A program made the position numbers and the translations under genes. A model generated the notes under the pieces. That model ran no database searches and was not told the origin of the DNA. It worked only from the letters and a program-made list of their open reading frames with translations. This document shows positions 169 to 27,918 of a stretch of DNA of 31,666 nucleotides, piece by piece; position 1 is the stretch's first letter; every line of letters begins with the position of its first letter. The stretch comes from a virus: positions 1 to 31,666 of the IMG/VR virus record IMGVR_UViG_3300048037_000007; one strand, 5' to 3'.

Positions 169-253
169 TAAGAGTCCTAATGATGGTCTTAGCGATAAAG
201 TAGCTGAGATGGTAAGTCAGAATGAATTAACAGATGATGATATTCCTTTCTGA
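1..253 (+). CDS. SSB-like protein, C-terminal part (5' partial at the window edge)
   Basis: This is the C-terminal portion of the gene that begins at 31128. It is open from base 2 with no start codon, and the stop TGA is at 251-253. Joined across the circular junction, the protein is 207 residues. It ends in an acidic stretch closing with DDDIPF, the same terminal motif that bacterial SSB proteins use to recruit replication and repair partners. That ending, and the next gene being the primase-helicase (ATG at 253 overlaps the stop by one base), suggest a single-stranded-DNA-binding role. I cannot recognise an OB fold by eye, so the function is inferred from tail motif and context. The internal ATG at 56 lies within this frame and is not a separate gene. 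Residue 138 is Leu here (CTT) and Pro in the 3' copy (CCT). Confidence 0.75.
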   Translation, partial: SDSLPVVKFEGSKLIQVGMGNSSELTFSFAKFAPRSPEFVIPSWYTDQEAPVEDTFKSPNDGLSDKVAEMVSQNELTDDDIPF

Positions 254-2199
254 TGCAATCAGTAGATTGGCAAAGAATAGCACCTGAAGTTGCAAAGCAA
301 TTACTAGGTGAACCCACCAGCACCTCATCTAATGAATTAAGATGGGGTCGCAAGGGTTCTTTTGTTCTTAACTTAGAAGCAGGCACTTGGTTTGATTTTG
401 AGAATGATACTGGTGGTGGATTAATAGATTTAATCAAACACTTGAATCAAGATGTCAATACAATTTTAAAACAGTTTGGTTATGACTTAGCATTACAATC
501 AAATGACTCCTTATTAAGTGGTTTTTCTCCCCCTAAAAGCAAAACCACAAGTAATGCTAGGTCATTCTCTAGAGAGCAGATGATTGATCTTTACAAACAA
601 GCAATTGTGAAGGTCAAGTATGCTGATAACTTTATGGTGATGAGGTTTCCTGAAGGACACTTTATAAAGCAGAAATACGCACCATTTACCCTTAACAATG
701 ATCAAACTTGGTCTATGAAGAGACCTGAAGGCTCTCTACCTATTTATTACACAAATAAGTACCCTACTAAACCTATTATCATAAATGAAGGTGAGAAGGC
801 TCTAAGGGGCTGTGAAGCGATTTATGAGGGTGATAGTTGTACTTGGCATGGTGGAGTTAATAGCTGGGAGAAAGCAGATTGGAGTCCTATATTTGGTAGG
901 GAAGTTTGGGTATTTCCTGATAATGATGAAGCTGGTATTAAGTGTGCAAATGACATAGCTAAGATGCTAAAGAAGAATGGTTGTAAAGTAAAAGTAGCAC
1001 AACCACCTGAATCATTTAATGAAAAAGATGATCTATACGATGCATATATAAGGGGTGATTTTAAAGAGTCAAAAGATTTAGAAGAATACATAATTAATTG
1101 TACTGAGAAGAAACCTAAAGGTGCTGTTACCTTTACAAGAGCAGATGAGGTATTAAGACAGGTAGATAACCCTGACTGGCTCATAGAAGATGTAGTAGAG
1201 AAGGAATCATTAATGTGCATTTTTGGAGCTCCCAAGAGTGGTAAGTCGTTTATTGCTATAGCTATGGCAGCTTCTATTGCTAAAGGTGAAAGATTTTATG
1301 GCAATAAAGCATACGCTAAACCAGTAATGTATGTATGTGGTGAGGGTCAAAGAGGTGTAAAAAGAAGATTAGCAGCATGGCAACAAGGTATGTTTGATCT
1401 AAACAATGTACCTTTATATCTATCTGATAGAGCAGTTAGAGTTAATGATCCTGATGATTTTAAGATGCTAGAGGAAGAAATAGAAGCATTGACACAGCAA
1501 GTAGGCGATATAGGTATGATTGTTATTGATACATTTCAGCGTAACTTTGTAGGTAATGAGAACAGTGCTGAAGATGTAGGTAACTTTATTAATAAATTAG
1601 ATGGACTTATATCACATTATAAGTGTTGTGTATGTTTGGTACATCATACTGGTCATGGCAACTCTACAAGAGGTAGAGGATCAAGTGTTATGGGTGCATC
1701 CTTAGATTATGAATTTAAAGTAGAAAGAGATGATCAACCAGTAAATGGTTTTGTTGATGAACAAATGCTTGTATCTTTTGAGCAGACATTAAATAAAGAT
1801 GGTCAAGGAATGGCTGTTAAGAACTTTATGTTTAAAGAAGTACAAATTATAGGTGAAGGCTTGAATCTAACATCAGGATTTTTAGAAGAAACTGATGTTG
1901 AATTAAAAGTTAAAAAGAAAACTGGATTACCACCTATGCAACAAAGAGCTTCAGATGCATTAAGAACTGTAGCTATGATTAAAGACAGTGCTTCTCCTCA
2001 AAGCATATATTTACAACCAGCAGACTTAGAAGGTTATGTAGAAAATCTTAAAGGTGAAAATATAAAAGCAGACAATATTAGAAAGCATTTAGAAGCATTA
2101 AAGAAAAAAGATAAGGTTGTATATGATCCTAACTGGGGTTATCAGCATGAGGATTTTAAGAATATGCCACCAAATTTTCCTGAAAAAAATGATAATTAG
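253..2199 (+). CDS. TOPRIM primase / AAA (RepA-type) replicative helicase
   Basis: A 648-residue replication protein that should prime and unwind phage DNA. The N-terminal segment (about residues 25-75, with WGRKGSF and a GTWFDFE...GGG pattern) looks like the N-terminal region found on phage primases. No zinc-ribbon cysteines are visible. A TOPRIM domain follows, with the acidic motif INEGEKA (177-183) and DNDEAG (223-228), which carry the metal-binding residues. A RecA/RepA-type ATPase follows, with Walker A GAPKSGKS (325-332), Walker B MIVIDT (422-427) and a conserved HHTGH (464-468). The C-terminal 120 residues are lysine-rich. It starts immediately after the SSB-like gene, giving an SSB/primase-helicase pair. 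No polymerase is encoded, so host DNA polymerase III is the likely partner. Domain calls are confident; the exact balance of primase and helicase activity is inferred. Confidence 0.9.
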   Translation: MQSVDWQRIAPEVAKQLLGEPTSTSSNELRWGRKGSFVLNLEAGTWFDFENDTGGGLIDLIKHLNQDVNTILKQFGYDLALQSNDSLLSGFSPPKSKTTSNARSFSREQMIDLYKQAIVKVKYADNFMVMRFPEGHFIKQKYAPFTLNNDQTWSMKRPEGSLPIYYTNKYPTKPIIINEGEKALRGCEAIYEGDSCTWHGGVNSWEKADWSPIFGREVWVFPDNDEAGIKCANDIAKMLKKNGCKVKVAQPPESFNEKDDLYDAYIRGDFKESKDLEEYIINCTEKKPKGAVTFTRADEVLRQVDNPDWLIEDVVEKESLMCIFGAPKSGKSFIAIAMAASIAKGERFYGNKAYAKPVMYVCGEGQRGVKRRLAAWQQGMFDLNNVPLYLSDRAVRVNDPDDFKMLEEEIEALTQQVGDIGMIVIDTFQRNFVGNENSAEDVGNFINKLDGLISHYKCCVCLVHHTGHGNSTRGRGSSVMGASLDYEFKVERDDQPVNGFVDEQMLVSFEQTLNKDGQGMAVKNFMFKEVQIIGEGLNLTSGFLEETDVELKVKKKTGLPPMQQRASDALRTVAMIKDSASPQSIYLQPADLEGYVENLKGENIKADNIRKHLEALKKKDKVVYDPNWGYQHEDFKNMPPNFPEKNDN

Positions 2200-2200
2200 G

Positions 2201-2272
2201 TCGGAAGTGTCGGAAGGAAGTGTCGGAAGTTTTAAGGAAGTTTTTGGTGAAAAACAATAAATAGGTCGGAAG
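2201..2272 (+). repeat. Iteron-like TCGGAAG repeats, candidate origin or operator
   Basis: The gap after the primase-helicase gene contains TCGGAAG at 2201, 2210, 2223 and 2266, with a related TTCGGAG at 2318-2324 next to the following start codon. The first three form a 13-bp period: GGAAGTGTCGGAAG occurs at 2203-2216 and again at 2216-2229. The strand is almost purely G/A between coding AT-rich genes, so this is not background composition. Short direct repeats beside a RepA-type helicase gene are typical of replication origins, but they could also be operator sites. No binding protein is identified. Confidence 0.5.
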
Positions 2273-2280
2273 GAAGGGAA

Positions 2281-2299
2281 GGAAGTATGTAATACTTCC
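2281..2299 (+). promoter_or_regulatory. Perfect 8-bp hairpin upstream of the 2329 gene
   Basis: GGAAGTAT (2281-2288), a 3-nt loop GTA, then ATACTTCC (2292-2299) form a perfect inverted repeat. A second CTTCC at 2304-2308 allows alternative pairing with the GGAAG repeats upstream. There is no T-run after it, so it is unlikely to be an intrinsic terminator. It could be part of an origin or a translational control element for the gene starting at 2329, whose GGAG (2321-2324) lies just downstream. Confidence 0.45.
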
Positions 2300-2328
2300 C
2301 TTACTTCCTACTAAATGTTCGGAGTTTT

Positions 2329-2823
2329 ATGAAAACATATTTAGATGAAACATTACAAGATAAATTAAAAGAACTTAGGGTTTATGAGTTAGAAACTTTT
2401 GTGAAGTGGGGTAATCGTAAACGAATCTTTAAGATGGTAGGTGTAAAGTTTGAGATCAAATTTTGCAAAGCAGAACAATTACTTAAGGATTCTTTATATA
2501 GTGATACTACTGCTCAGAAACTTAAAATGGTTGAGATGATGATTAGAGCTTATGAGCAGTTAAATATTAAATGCGAAGAAAGTGGTTACATTATGATCCA
2601 GCCAAATGTTAAGTGTTTTAACTTTGATAACAAGACTGCATTAGTTTGTGATACTGATGATGAGAAACCAGCACTTGAAATGATACATAAAGATGAGAAG
2701 GATATAATGATATTTAGTATAGAAGAATTATTACGATGTATTCCTGATGATTTTATGAAAGCAAAACAACTATTATCTAGATTAGATAAGTCAGTAAACA
2801 TACAGAAGGTGACCTATGATTGA
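2329..2823 (+). CDS. Hypothetical protein, 164 aa
   Basis: I do not recognise this protein. It is 164 residues, soluble-looking, rich in Lys/Glu/Asp, with cysteines near residues 46, 82, 96, 107 and 136 that are not spaced as an obvious zinc finger. A GGAG sits 4 nt before the ATG. It is the first gene after the repeat/hairpin region and overlaps the PP-loop gene by 8 nt, so the two are probably translationally coupled. Its place beside replication genes suggests a DNA-metabolism or regulatory role, but nothing in the sequence proves it. Confidence 0.7.
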   Translation: MKTYLDETLQDKLKELRVYELETFVKWGNRKRIFKMVGVKFEIKFCKAEQLLKDSLYSDTTAQKLKMVEMMIRAYEQLNIKCEESGYIMIQPNVKCFNFDNKTALVCDTDDEKPALEMIHKDEKDIMIFSIEELLRCIPDDFMKAKQLLSRLDKSVNIQKVTYD

Positions 2824-3652
2824 TCCATATAAAATACCAACTCCAGCATTAATTAGTTTTAGTGGTGGTAGGACTTCAGGTTTTATGCTTTGGAATATAA
2901 TACAAGCATATAATGGAAAATTACCTGATGATATACATGTGGTTTTTGCTAATACAGGTAAAGAAGCACCTGAAACATTAGATTTTGTGCATGAAATATC
3001 ACAAAAATGGGATATTAAAATACACTGGCTAGAAATGTATCTTGGTAAAGAGAGACCAATTTATAGAACAAAAGAAGTAACTTATGAAACAGCAGCTAGA
3101 AATGGCGAACCATTTGAAGAGCTTTTAGATCATAGAAAATATTTACCTAATCCAGTTACAAGATTTTGTACATCAGAGTTAAAAATAAAAGTTATGTATA
3201 GGTTTATGAGAAAAATGCAAGGTTATAAAGATTGGCATAATGTTATAGGTCTTAGATATGATGAGCCAAGAAGGGTTAAGAGTGCTATGAAACAATATAA
3301 TGTTTGGACAAATTTAACTCCAATGTATGATGCCAAGCACACGATAACTGATGTGTCACAATTTTGGAAAAAACAAAATTTTGATCTAAATTTAACTAAT
3401 GCCAATGGTAAAACTCCTGCTGGTAATTGTGATCTATGCTTTTTAAAAGGTATGGATACAACTATTTCGATTATGAAAGAAAGACCTGAAATGGCTGATT
3501 GGTGGATCAAACAAGAGCAAAAGTTTGGTAAACATGCTGGTGCTACTTTTAGAAAAGATAGACCTAAATATATTGATTTAGTTGATATAAGTAAAAAAAC
3601 GCAAGATTTATTTAATGATGATGATCAAATGACCTGTTTCTGCCATGACTAA
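2816..3652 (+). CDS. PP-loop ATPase, PAPS reductase-like family
   Basis: A 278-residue protein of the phosphoadenosine-phosphosulfate reductase/PP-loop superfamily, which activates substrates with ATP or binds adenylylated sulfate. The PP-loop SGGRTS is at residues 16-21 and is followed by the family's VVFANTGKE (42-50). Cysteines occur in RFCTSELK (116-123), CDLCFLKG (205-212) and CFC near the C-terminus (274-276). Such clusters suit iron-sulfur binding or thiol chemistry. Phage members are often annotated PAPS reductase, but true sulfate assimilation is unlikely here. Modification of nucleic acid or a nucleotide is an alternative. It overlaps both the preceding gene (8 nt) and the small gene at 3645 (8 nt). 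Family call is strong; substrate unknown. Confidence 0.85.
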   Translation: MIDPYKIPTPALISFSGGRTSGFMLWNIIQAYNGKLPDDIHVVFANTGKEAPETLDFVHEISQKWDIKIHWLEMYLGKERPIYRTKEVTYETAARNGEPFEELLDHRKYLPNPVTRFCTSELKIKVMYRFMRKMQGYKDWHNVIGLRYDEPRRVKSAMKQYNVWTNLTPMYDAKHTITDVSQFWKKQNFDLNLTNANGKTPAGNCDLCFLKGMDTTISIMKERPEMADWWIKQEQKFGKHAGATFRKDRPKYIDLVDISKKTQDLFNDDDQMTCFCHD

Positions 3653-4211: not shown

Positions 4212-4435
4212 TGAATGATCCAGTAAACCATCCATTACATTATAACAATGCTAAAGGTGGATTAGAATGTATTGACTACATCAAACAACAATTAGGTAGT
4301 GAATTCCCTGCTTATCTTGAAGGTAATGCAATTAAATACTTGCATCGCCACAAATACAAAGATGCCAATATACAAGACTTACAGAAGTCTGTTTGGTATA
4401 TTAATAAGTTAATAGAACATTACGAGAACTTATGA
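4211..4435 (+). CDS. DUF3310-like protein, 74 aa
   Basis: A 74-residue protein beginning MNDPVNHPLHYNN and containing the family's core ECIDYI and NAIKYLHRHKYKD patterns. This matches the small phage family DUF3310. Members are sometimes labelled nucleotide kinase in databases, but they lack a P-loop, and none is visible here. The role is unproven. The conserved histidines and RHK cluster suggest nucleotide or nucleic-acid contact, which is inference. It overlaps the HTH gene by 4 nt. Confidence 0.8.
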   Translation: MNDPVNHPLHYNNAKGGLECIDYIKQQLGSEFPAYLEGNAIKYLHRHKYKDANIQDLQKSVWYINKLIEHYENL

Positions 4436-4590
4436 AGATAGATAAACAAAAATTAGAACAAAAGATTAAGGAAGGTAAATCATCACATGATATTGCTATG
4501 ACTTATGACGTGCATCCATCTACTATCAGAAGAAAAGCTAAAGCATTAGGTCTTAAGTTTCAAACACAATCACATTGGAGAAAAGGATGA
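4432..4590 (+). CDS. Small helix-turn-helix protein, 52 aa
   Basis: The frame ATG 4432 to TGA 4588-4590 encodes a basic 52-residue protein. Residues about 17-41 (SSHDIAMTYDVHPSTIRRKAK onward) have the spacing of a helix-turn-helix of the resolvase/homeodomain-like type: a helix, a short turn, then a recognition helix rich in Arg/Lys. It is probably a DNA-binding regulator or an accessory packaging/replication factor. It overlaps DUF3310-like (4 nt) and the next gene (4 nt). The last genes before the candidate cos site are a plausible place for a cos- or origin-binding accessory protein, but this is inference. Confidence 0.65.
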   Translation: MKIDKQKLEQKIKEGKSSHDIAMTYDVHPSTIRRKAKALGLKFQTQSHWRKG

Positions 4591-5180
4591 GAGTATCAGT
4601 CAAAAGCAATATAGATGAAGTAACAAAGTGGACTACTAATGTTCAAAGAAAACAAATACCATTTGCAACATCTAGTGCAATTAACAAAACATTGTTTCAG
4701 CTTAGAAAAGAGATGATGAAGCAGACTGTTAAGAAGTTAGATAGACCTACTCCATTTACTCAAAAAGGTTTCTTAGTGCAGACAGCTAAGAAAACAAAAC
4801 TAAAAGGTATGTTGTTTATAAAGCAACAAGTAGAAGAATATTTACAATATCAAATAGATGGTGGTATTAGATCAACTGGCAAGAATATACCTATTCCGTA
4901 CAAACCTAATGCTAGACTAAACAAGTATGGAAACATTATAGGTAAAAGAACTGGACTAATTAAAAAGAATACTCAATTCTTTGGAACTGTAAAAGGTATT
5001 GATGGTGTTTGGGAAAGACAGAAGAAAGACAATAGGCTAAAGCTCATTATAGGATTTACAAAGACTGCTGCTTATGAACCTAAGTTTCCATTCTATGTGA
5101 TCGCTGATAAATTTGTTGCAGCTAACTTTGATAAGAACTTTGCAGAAAAATTTGCTCAAGCACTAAGGAGTGCTAAATGA
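4587..5180 (+). CDS. Putative minor tail/neck protein (gpZ-like), 197 aa
   Basis: I chose ATG 4587 over a TTG at 4575 because GGAG (4577-4580) is correctly placed 6 nt before it. The 197-residue product starts MRVSVKSNIDEVTKW and has a PFATSSAINKT segment, a DRPTPFT motif near residue 50, and a C-terminal FPFYVIADKF...F.NFA region. These features recall phage minor tail or tail-completion proteins of the gpZ-like group. I am moderately sure of 'conserved structural-type phage protein' and unsure of the exact role. It lies before the candidate cos gap, apart from the other structural genes, so on a linear molecule it would be at the opposite end from the terminase. Confidence 0.5.
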   Translation: MRVSVKSNIDEVTKWTTNVQRKQIPFATSSAINKTLFQLRKEMMKQTVKKLDRPTPFTQKGFLVQTAKKTKLKGMLFIKQQVEEYLQYQIDGGIRSTGKNIPIPYKPNARLNKYGNIIGKRTGLIKKNTQFFGTVKGIDGVWERQKKDNRLKLIIGFTKTAAYEPKFPFYVIADKFVAANFDKNFAEKFAQALRSAK

Positions 5181-5272
5181 TAGGTTCTTCTACAGCATTC
5201 AACGTGGGTTATTCGCGACCACAGTTTTTTTTTAGCGACAGTCAAAATCTAATAGGGTAATAAACGCACTGT
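5181..5272. other. Candidate cos / terminase recognition region
   Basis: A 92-bp non-coding gap directly upstream of the Nu1-type small terminase gene, the position of cos in lambda-like phages. It holds a local G/C-rich patch with TCGCGA (5213-5218), arms GTGG (5204-5207) and CCAC (5219-5222), and a nine-T run (5225-5233). GCGAC occurs at 5215-5219 and 5235-5239, exactly 20 bp apart, compatible with two sites on one DNA face. A weak intrinsic terminator (4-bp stem plus T9) is an alternative reading. The exact nicking site cannot be read from sequence alone. Confidence 0.5.
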
Positions 5273-5797
5273 ATGGCTACACAAAGAGAAGTTGCAGACC
5301 ATTTGGATTTATCAGTCAAAAGAGTCTCAGAACTCATTAGAGATGGGATACTGCCCTCAAAACAGGGTAGAAGTCCTTTAAATATAGACGTTTGCAGAGT
5401 TGCATACATCTCCTACCTTAGAAAACTAGGTGGTTATCACAAAAGAAGTGGATCAGGTGATATTGCAGAAGAAAAAACTAAACTTACTGCAGCTCAAGCT
5501 AGAAAAGCAGAGTTAGAAGTAGAAGAACTAGAAGGAAACCTAATACCAGCACAATTAGTAGAAGATACTTGGGTTGATTATGTGGCTAATGCAAGAGCAA
5601 AGCTATTAGGACTACCTTCAAGAGTTGCACATCAGGTTATAACTGTTGATAAGTATGCAGAAGCAGAATTAATAATAAAAGAACAAGTGCATGAAGCACT
5701 AAACGAGTTAGCTCAAAATGGAATACCTCAAAAATATAGAAAAGGTGATACAGGAGACGAATCAGACATGGACTCCACCACCCAATCTGAAGATTAG
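5273..5797 (+). CDS. terS: Terminase small subunit (Nu1-like)
   Basis: A 174-residue DNA-recognition subunit that should bind cos and load the large terminase for packaging. Residues 1-25 (MATQREVADHLDLSVKRVSE) form the N-terminal winged helix-turn-helix typical of lambda Nu1. Residues about 66-90 (EEKTKLTAAQARKAELEVEE) form the helical assembly segment seen in this family. The C-terminal tail is acidic and would contact the large subunit. No clear Shine-Dalgarno is visible before ATG 5273. The gene overlaps the large terminase by 80 nt, suggesting coupled translation. Confidence 0.9.
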   Translation: MATQREVADHLDLSVKRVSELIRDGILPSKQGRSPLNIDVCRVAYISYLRKLGGYHKRSGSGDIAEEKTKLTAAQARKAELEVEELEGNLIPAQLVEDTWVDYVANARAKLLGLPSRVAHQVITVDKYAEAELIIKEQVHEALNELAQNGIPQKYRKGDTGDESDMDSTTQSED

Positions 5798-27874: not shown

Positions 27875-27888
27875 TCTTTATATATTTA

Positions 27889-27918
27889 TTTACATATTTC
27901 TATATATATGTATATAAT
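27889..27918 (+). promoter_or_regulatory. Sigma-70-like promoter upstream of the small-gene operon
   Basis: TTTACA (27889-27894), an 18-nt spacer and TATAAT (27913-27918) form the best sigma-70-type promoter I found in the window. It sits in a very AT-rich 79-bp gap, 36 nt before the ATG at 27954, which has GGAG ahead of it. It likely drives the operon of small genes and recombination nucleases running to 31110, and possibly onward through the SSB-like and primase genes across the junction. Confidence 0.55.

Follow-up and report, generated by a model that had tools for sequence, protein, structure and literature searches.

A candidate iteron origin with a replaceable repeat word beside the primase-helicase gene of uncultured phages

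Replication of the crenarchaeal plasmid pRN1 needs a stem-loop located 3' of its primase-helicase/winged-helix gene, according to the available part of PMC4234260. As described there, pRN1 and phage stem-loops such as BIP-1 are positioned directly 3' of a multidomain primase-helicase gene with a C-terminal winged helix, and the stem structure is kept while its sequence varies; both features are also exhibited by the locus analysed here. The proteins differ, as pRN1 encodes an archaeo-eukaryotic primase (prim-pol) with an SF3 helicase, whereas the protein of this study contains a Toprim domain and a RepA-type AAA_25 helicase. The pRN1 origin is also without iterons in that part of PMC4234260, whereas the element described below features an iteron array whose word covaries with its proposed reader. 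Because the protein make-up differs from that of the pRN1 family, the element appears to work alike without being a member.

In the PLE satellites, the DNA-binding domain of the RepA_N initiator changes in step with the origin and is exchanged modularly against a conserved remainder of the protein, as at this locus, and experiments have demonstrated that this domain works only with its cognate origin (available part of PMC8263062). The PLE initiator differs in carrying a RepA_N domain with no primase-helicase fusion, its iterons are semi-palindromic and ~30 bp long, and two replicon groups are described in the same text, whereas the family of this study and its relatives use ten or more words. 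The alpha protein of phage P4 unites a primase, a helicase and a winged helix that binds origin repeats in one protein, as is proposed for the reader at this locus, and RSF1010 oriV shares with it iterons, hairpins and a RepA-type hexameric helicase (both in the available part of PMC4234260). RSF1010 uses three separate proteins (RepA, RepB' and RepC, with RepC binding the iterons), whereas a single polypeptide is encoded here. The lambdoid O/ori system also contains four or more initiator-bound iterons beside an AT-rich region, but these are located inside the O gene and not in a gap between genes (available part of PMC7466680).

The stretch of DNA analysed, hereafter the window, is the entire linear IMG/VR virus record IMGVR_UViG_3300048037_000007 of 31,666 bases. 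The helicase of P4 alpha belongs to a different family from that encoded in the window, and to our knowledge P4 ori has neither a hairpin nor a family-wide replacement of its word; lambda O is neither a helicase nor a primase. The element found in the window at about 2203-2309 is quite probably an iteron origin read by the product of the upstream primase-helicase gene, with word and reader together forming an exchanged module. No description of the element or of family-wide word replacement was found in the open-access literature searched, and the repeated replacement of a putative origin word across a phage family is possibly new here. The sequence of an uncultured phage seldom reveals its replication origin, and the layout of the element, rather than its sequence, may serve as the rule for finding them.

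Anatomy of the element in the window

The primase-helicase gene (253..2199, + strand, 648 aa) is separated by a gap of 129 bp from a gene encoding a conserved 164-aa protein (2329..2823, + strand), and this gap holds the repeat element. The repeats and hairpin noticed earlier are real in the window sequence (2197-2331). The first part is a direct array on the + strand (2203..2240) with the word GGAAG at 2203, 2212, 2216, 2225 and 2236. The array had been reported as copies of TCGGAAG with a 13-bp tandem period at 2203-2229; this period is borne out, and four of the five TCGGAAG copies on both strands of the window are within the element (2201, 2210, 2223 and 2266), with the related TTCGGAG at 2318. 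The array is adjoined by an AT-rich spacer (2240..2265) containing a small TTTTTG/AAAAAC hairpin. An AT-rich region is likewise read beside the array in relatives, and the spacer is a candidate unwinding region. The final part is an inverted word cluster or hairpin (2268..2309) with GGAAG at 2268, 2272, 2277 and 2281, CTTCC at 2295 and 2304, and a palindromic centre of GTAT-GTA-ATAC at about 2285-2295. The perfect 8-bp hairpin proposed from the window is found at 2280-2287 / 2302-2309, nested in a longer imperfect inverted repeat (2271-2288 / 2292-2309) that is 83% complementary with a 3-nt loop.

The window contains 49 copies of GGAAG on both strands, 11 of which are within 2203-2308, and elsewhere the word does not exceed two copies per 160 bp. 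Among order-1 Markov windows, the top clustered 5-mer of any kind reached at least 11 copies per 130 bp in 2/100, so that the cluster in the window sequence alone is unusual, not overwhelming. Taken alone, the hairpin is likewise modest, its longest perfect stem of 8 bp having p<=0.015 against shuffled sequences, and the RNA fold of the entire region has a z of -1.23. The element rises above chance because its layout is conserved in relatives. GC skew stays positive from one end of the window to the other, does not switch sign and lends the origin reading no support. Apart from GGAAG, the strongest 5-mer clustering in the window is that of a short ATATA-rich tract at 27879-27916. Following the downstream gene is a PAPS-reductase-like gene (2816-3652), which has a match in only 6 of 144 related loci.

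Layout and word in relatives

A first scan of viral contigs with the primase-helicase returned 62 loci, and the element is present in all 57 gaps that were extracted. With further scans, 251 loci were collected, from which 144 distinct pairs of primase protein and gap remain; 14 loci without a downstream gene were dropped, and others were N-terminally incomplete or duplicates. In every one of the 144 pairs, the word core of the respective group is found in both orientations. The earlier note had named absence of the repeats from close relatives with the same replication gene as grounds for giving up a candidate origin; the opposite is found, and the conserved element supports the proposal of a putative origin. 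The word of relatives often differs from that of the window, which was not visible from the window alone.

The common layout 3' of the primase-helicase gene consists of ~4 direct copies at intervals of roughly a helical turn, then an AT-rich spacer, and lastly inverted copies around a palindrome. Ten words occupy this layout across the groups: GTGTG (48 pairs), GGTTT (26), GGAAG (21), GGGAAG (14), GGGAA (11), GGGTG (7), CGGAA (5), GGCAGAG (5), GGGGTA (4) and AGTTAG (3). These machine labels were assigned by regular expressions and then by hand for loci L229 (GGGGTA) and L198 (GGGAAG). All copies in an element, the inverted ones included, switch word together, and within word groups the spacers and part lengths persist. 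Relatives with GGAAG, for example L013, contain four copies at a spacing of 11-12 bp, and the GGCAGAG group carries its word mainly on the opposite strand.

An extra gene is located on one side of the element in 8 of the 144 pairs. It lies between the primase gene and the element in three (L097, L109 and L117) and between the element and the downstream gene in five (L156, L198, L199, L200 and L222). The element is intact beside the inserted genes except in L198, in which a 653-aa protein and a shortened gap suggest that the array is inside an extended primase ORF. Since genes are inserted on either side, the element is more than a tail of the primase gene or a leader of the downstream gene. 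Several of the inserted genes are DNA-methyltransferase-like by eye.

Searches of phages returned neither a close DNA match nor a match to the downstream 164-aa protein. Plasmid matches to the primase-helicase comprise 25 records, none of which covers 80% of the protein and all of which are below 60% identity.

The proposed reader and alternative explanations

The 648-aa product is composed of a Toprim-like primase half (Toprim_2, 4.3e-05), a RepA-type helicase (AAA_25, 4e-36) and a C-terminal predicted winged helix, as identified with Pfam, PHROGs and a structural model. The predicted winged-helix domain, which is the proposed word reader, spans residues about 561-632 (1933..2148, + strand), and its predicted recognition helix spans residues 606-618 (2068-2106, + strand). 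The AlphaFold2 model has three helices followed by a two-stranded wing (H561-577, H589-592, H606-618, E622-625, E629-632), with a pLDDT of 80.5 for the C domain and 82.2 for the full length. Structural matches of the C domain are mostly winged-helix proteins with Z of 7-8.6, little above background, and Foldseek provided no match for it at E<=0.001. The fold look-up gave no clear nearest family; a fold like that of P4 alpha did not stand out, an outcome that does not count against it.

Pairwise identity of each protein part was compared with sharing of the word over 139 of the 144 loci (9591 pairs), five being left out of the domain comparisons due to an odd length of the downstream protein. 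The AUC for the same word is 0.970 for the C-terminal 103 residues, 0.628 for residues 1-140, 0.686 for residues 141-280 and 0.63-0.64 for the downstream protein. The helicase, at 0.941 and 0.953, tracks the word almost as well as the C domain (0.94-0.95 vs 0.97), which limits the origin reading. Minimum word changes on the domain trees are likewise close for these two parts, with 11 for the C domain and 12 for the helicase, against 27 for the primase half and 29 for the downstream protein (possible minimum 9; shuffled labels ~84). The tracking by the helicase indicates that helicase and C domain often travel together.

Contrasts between single words point to the C domain as the part that tracks the word. 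Groups GGAAG and GGGAA are separated by 37 columns, with 34 in the C domain, three in the helicase and none in residues 1-280, and for GGGTG and GGGGTA 32 of 44 separating columns are in the C domain. The contrast of GGGAAG with AGTTAG is less clean (22 of 119). Loci L008 (GGGAA) and L046 (GGAAG) are 95% identical over residues 1-545 and 39% in the C domain. C-domain identities overlap, with same-word pairs down to 27% and different-word pairs up to 84% (L027, GGGAAG/GGAAG). Across the entire protein, the column most informative about the word is H612, followed by A615, then G379 of the helicase and A606; H612, A615 and A606 are all on helix 606-618. The motif of this helix is NIGKHL-like in phages with GGAAG, SIKKML-like in those with GGGAA and in most with GGGAAG, SIKTTHL for AGTTAG, TIGKAL for CGGAA and AINDRL for GGGTG. 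These pairs of reader and word, including the near-isogenic L008 and L046, constitute a natural data set for decoding winged-helix recognition.

Other phage proteins were considered as readers. The downstream protein adjoins the element as closely as the primase-helicase does and is rejected on its low AUC and on being 100% identical in L156 (GTGTG) and L198 (GGGAAG). Three binders were proposed in the earlier note, and two of them drop out: the HTH (4432) and the RHH (30101) protein are each 100% identical in the window (GGAAG) and in L174 (GGTTT) and are therefore not word readers, which leaves the primase-helicase.

An operator, at which the primase-helicase or another phage protein would bind the words and control transcription of the downstream gene with no origin involved, is improbable. 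Such a site would agree with the usual position of the element directly upstream of the conserved 164-aa gene, and covariation of word and reader would look identical; however, genes intervene between element and downstream gene (5/144) or between primase gene and element (3/144), promoter-like matches are no more than expected by chance, no terminator was found, the genomes checked contain no second word cluster, and none of the HTH, RHH and downstream proteins qualifies as the reader. Mere linkage is slightly less probable still. Here the C-terminal coding end and the element would recombine as one block, and the words would have another reader, for instance a host factor or a phage protein encoded far away. 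No other part of the protein is as close to the element as the C domain, and some of the correlation therefore stems from linkage; tracking by the helicase domain also agrees with this explanation. Yet the downstream protein, equally adjacent, does not track the word, and linkage leaves unexplained both the concerted change of all copies inside a conserved layout and the concentration of the most informative residues on the recognition helix.

The array period is 10-12 bp in nine of the ten word groups; that of GTGTG is not resolvable because the word forms a dinucleotide repeat. Mean identity over groups is 0.39, 0.49 and 0.43 at lags 10, 11 and 12, and 0.25-0.29 at the other lags from 6 to 19. 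This period agrees with proteins binding along a single face of the double helix. For the tests of structure, 92 distinct short gaps were taken from the 144, and a longest-stem test over 16 word types gave a Fisher p of 1.4e-8, in which relatedness of the sequences is not corrected for. The hairpin is thus modest per sequence and jointly significant. A conserved 5'-side bulge is not supported, as 41 elements best fit a 5' bulge and 51 a 3' bulge. The least probable explanation is a role at the RNA level, with words and hairpin forming a leader, an attenuator or a protein-bound structure of the transcript: the stem is kept while its sequence varies and the outer flanks look complementary in most groups, though only weakly above the control (4.54 vs 4.03 +/- 0.63), but the array period is close to the DNA helical repeat, the GGCAGAG word is mainly on the opposite strand, Rfam gave no match at gathering thresholds, and stem mismatches (75 G.T, 39 A.C, 260 others) carry no clear RNA signature.

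An iteron origin accords with the helically phased direct repeats, the AT-rich region next to them, the site beside the gene of the proposed initiator, and the single site in each genome checked. At such an origin, primase-helicase protomers would bind the words as double-stranded DNA through the C-terminal winged helix. On the direct array, where neighbouring words are separated by about one turn of the helix, they would line up on one face of the DNA. The inverted cluster would bind further protomers in the opposite orientation, and assembly on both sides would melt the AT-rich spacer. The RecA-type helicase ring could then be loaded and the Toprim domain could prime, while the palindrome may form a hairpin that aids loading or priming. 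Word and winged helix would constitute a specificity module exchanged between phages, sometimes together with the helicase domain; the histories of the primase half and of the neighbouring genes would be separate.

Distant relatives, named phages and bacterial contigs

Named phages encode only distant primase-helicases, with about 25-38% identity over part of the protein. For 18 distant relatives encoding a related helicase, the DNA 3' of this gene was inspected, and seven contain the element. These exhibit the same design with a new word, which is GGTTCA in Alteromonas phages XX1924 and PB15, GGTACA in Idiomarinaceae phage 1N2-2, GGGACA in MW202867, GGGGACA in Salicola phage CGphi29, GCTGGAA in Roseobacter phage CRP-406 and TTGGCA in Wolbachia phage WOVitB. 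In ten the element was not found 3' of the gene (Microcystis phage Mae-JY30, BFK20, Baee, Oline, BiggityBass, Vibrio phage 1222, CKT1, MW202475, WOVitA2 and WOMel_AMD), and the remaining one, wKue (L276), contains a weak TAGGAA cluster after the gene (4403-4511). WOVitA2 (L274) has a TTGGCA-type cluster at 862-972, ~500 bp upstream of the match, and none after its repA-like gene.

The words GGTTCA and GGTACA are one base apart throughout their clusters, and the respective primase-helicases are about 60-78% identical, depending on the part. The word cluster is unique genome-wide in the window and in all five named genomes fetched whole. GC-skew minima of the named genomes lie close to the element in some cases, where gene orientation is a confounder, and at a great distance from it in MW202867. 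The available part of PMC12629253 places the helicase of CRP-406 near those of 1N2-2 and CGphi29, and that text makes no mention of a primase, repeat, hairpin or iteron. The origin of the Wolbachia chromosome is discussed in the available part of PMC9203015, with no mention of an iteron.

A broader interpretation, slightly more probable than not, is that these elements constitute a widespread class of phage origins with a self-read word code. The winged helix and a word of 5-7 bp would be freely exchangeable in such a class, and the word, repeated several to many times, would have been replaced in all copies at once, repeatedly. Its range would include uncultured marine phages, one of them linked to SAR86, and Alteromonas, Idiomarina-type, Salicola, Roseobacter and Wolbachia phages. 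This raises the question of why the identity of a phage origin is replaced so repeatedly; plausibly, it happens because origins that do not cross-react avoid rivals, satellites or origin-directed nucleases. Such nucleases have a precedent in PLE/ICP1 (available part of PMC8263062).

Four loci are from bacterial genomes. L253 and L254 contain the element, L252 has no downstream gene in its contig and is followed by a different gene, and L255 has another arrangement. The bacterial genome scan placed L253 within the SAR86 single-cell contig AG-390-L11 (~50.2-72.7 kb, L256-L259), in which the first ~50 kb consists of bacterial-looking genes, judged by eye from ORF starts, before the phage begins. 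The terminase of this phage is 96% identical to that of the window. L253 is either an integrated prophage or an amplification chimera, and SAR86 is the likely host. In L255, from Microbulbifer aggregans, several GC-rich hairpins that resemble one another (TTCCGC...GCGGAA type, about 4980-5650) come after a RepA-type helicase gene, and the gene after these hairpins is presumably ZorA/MotA-like.
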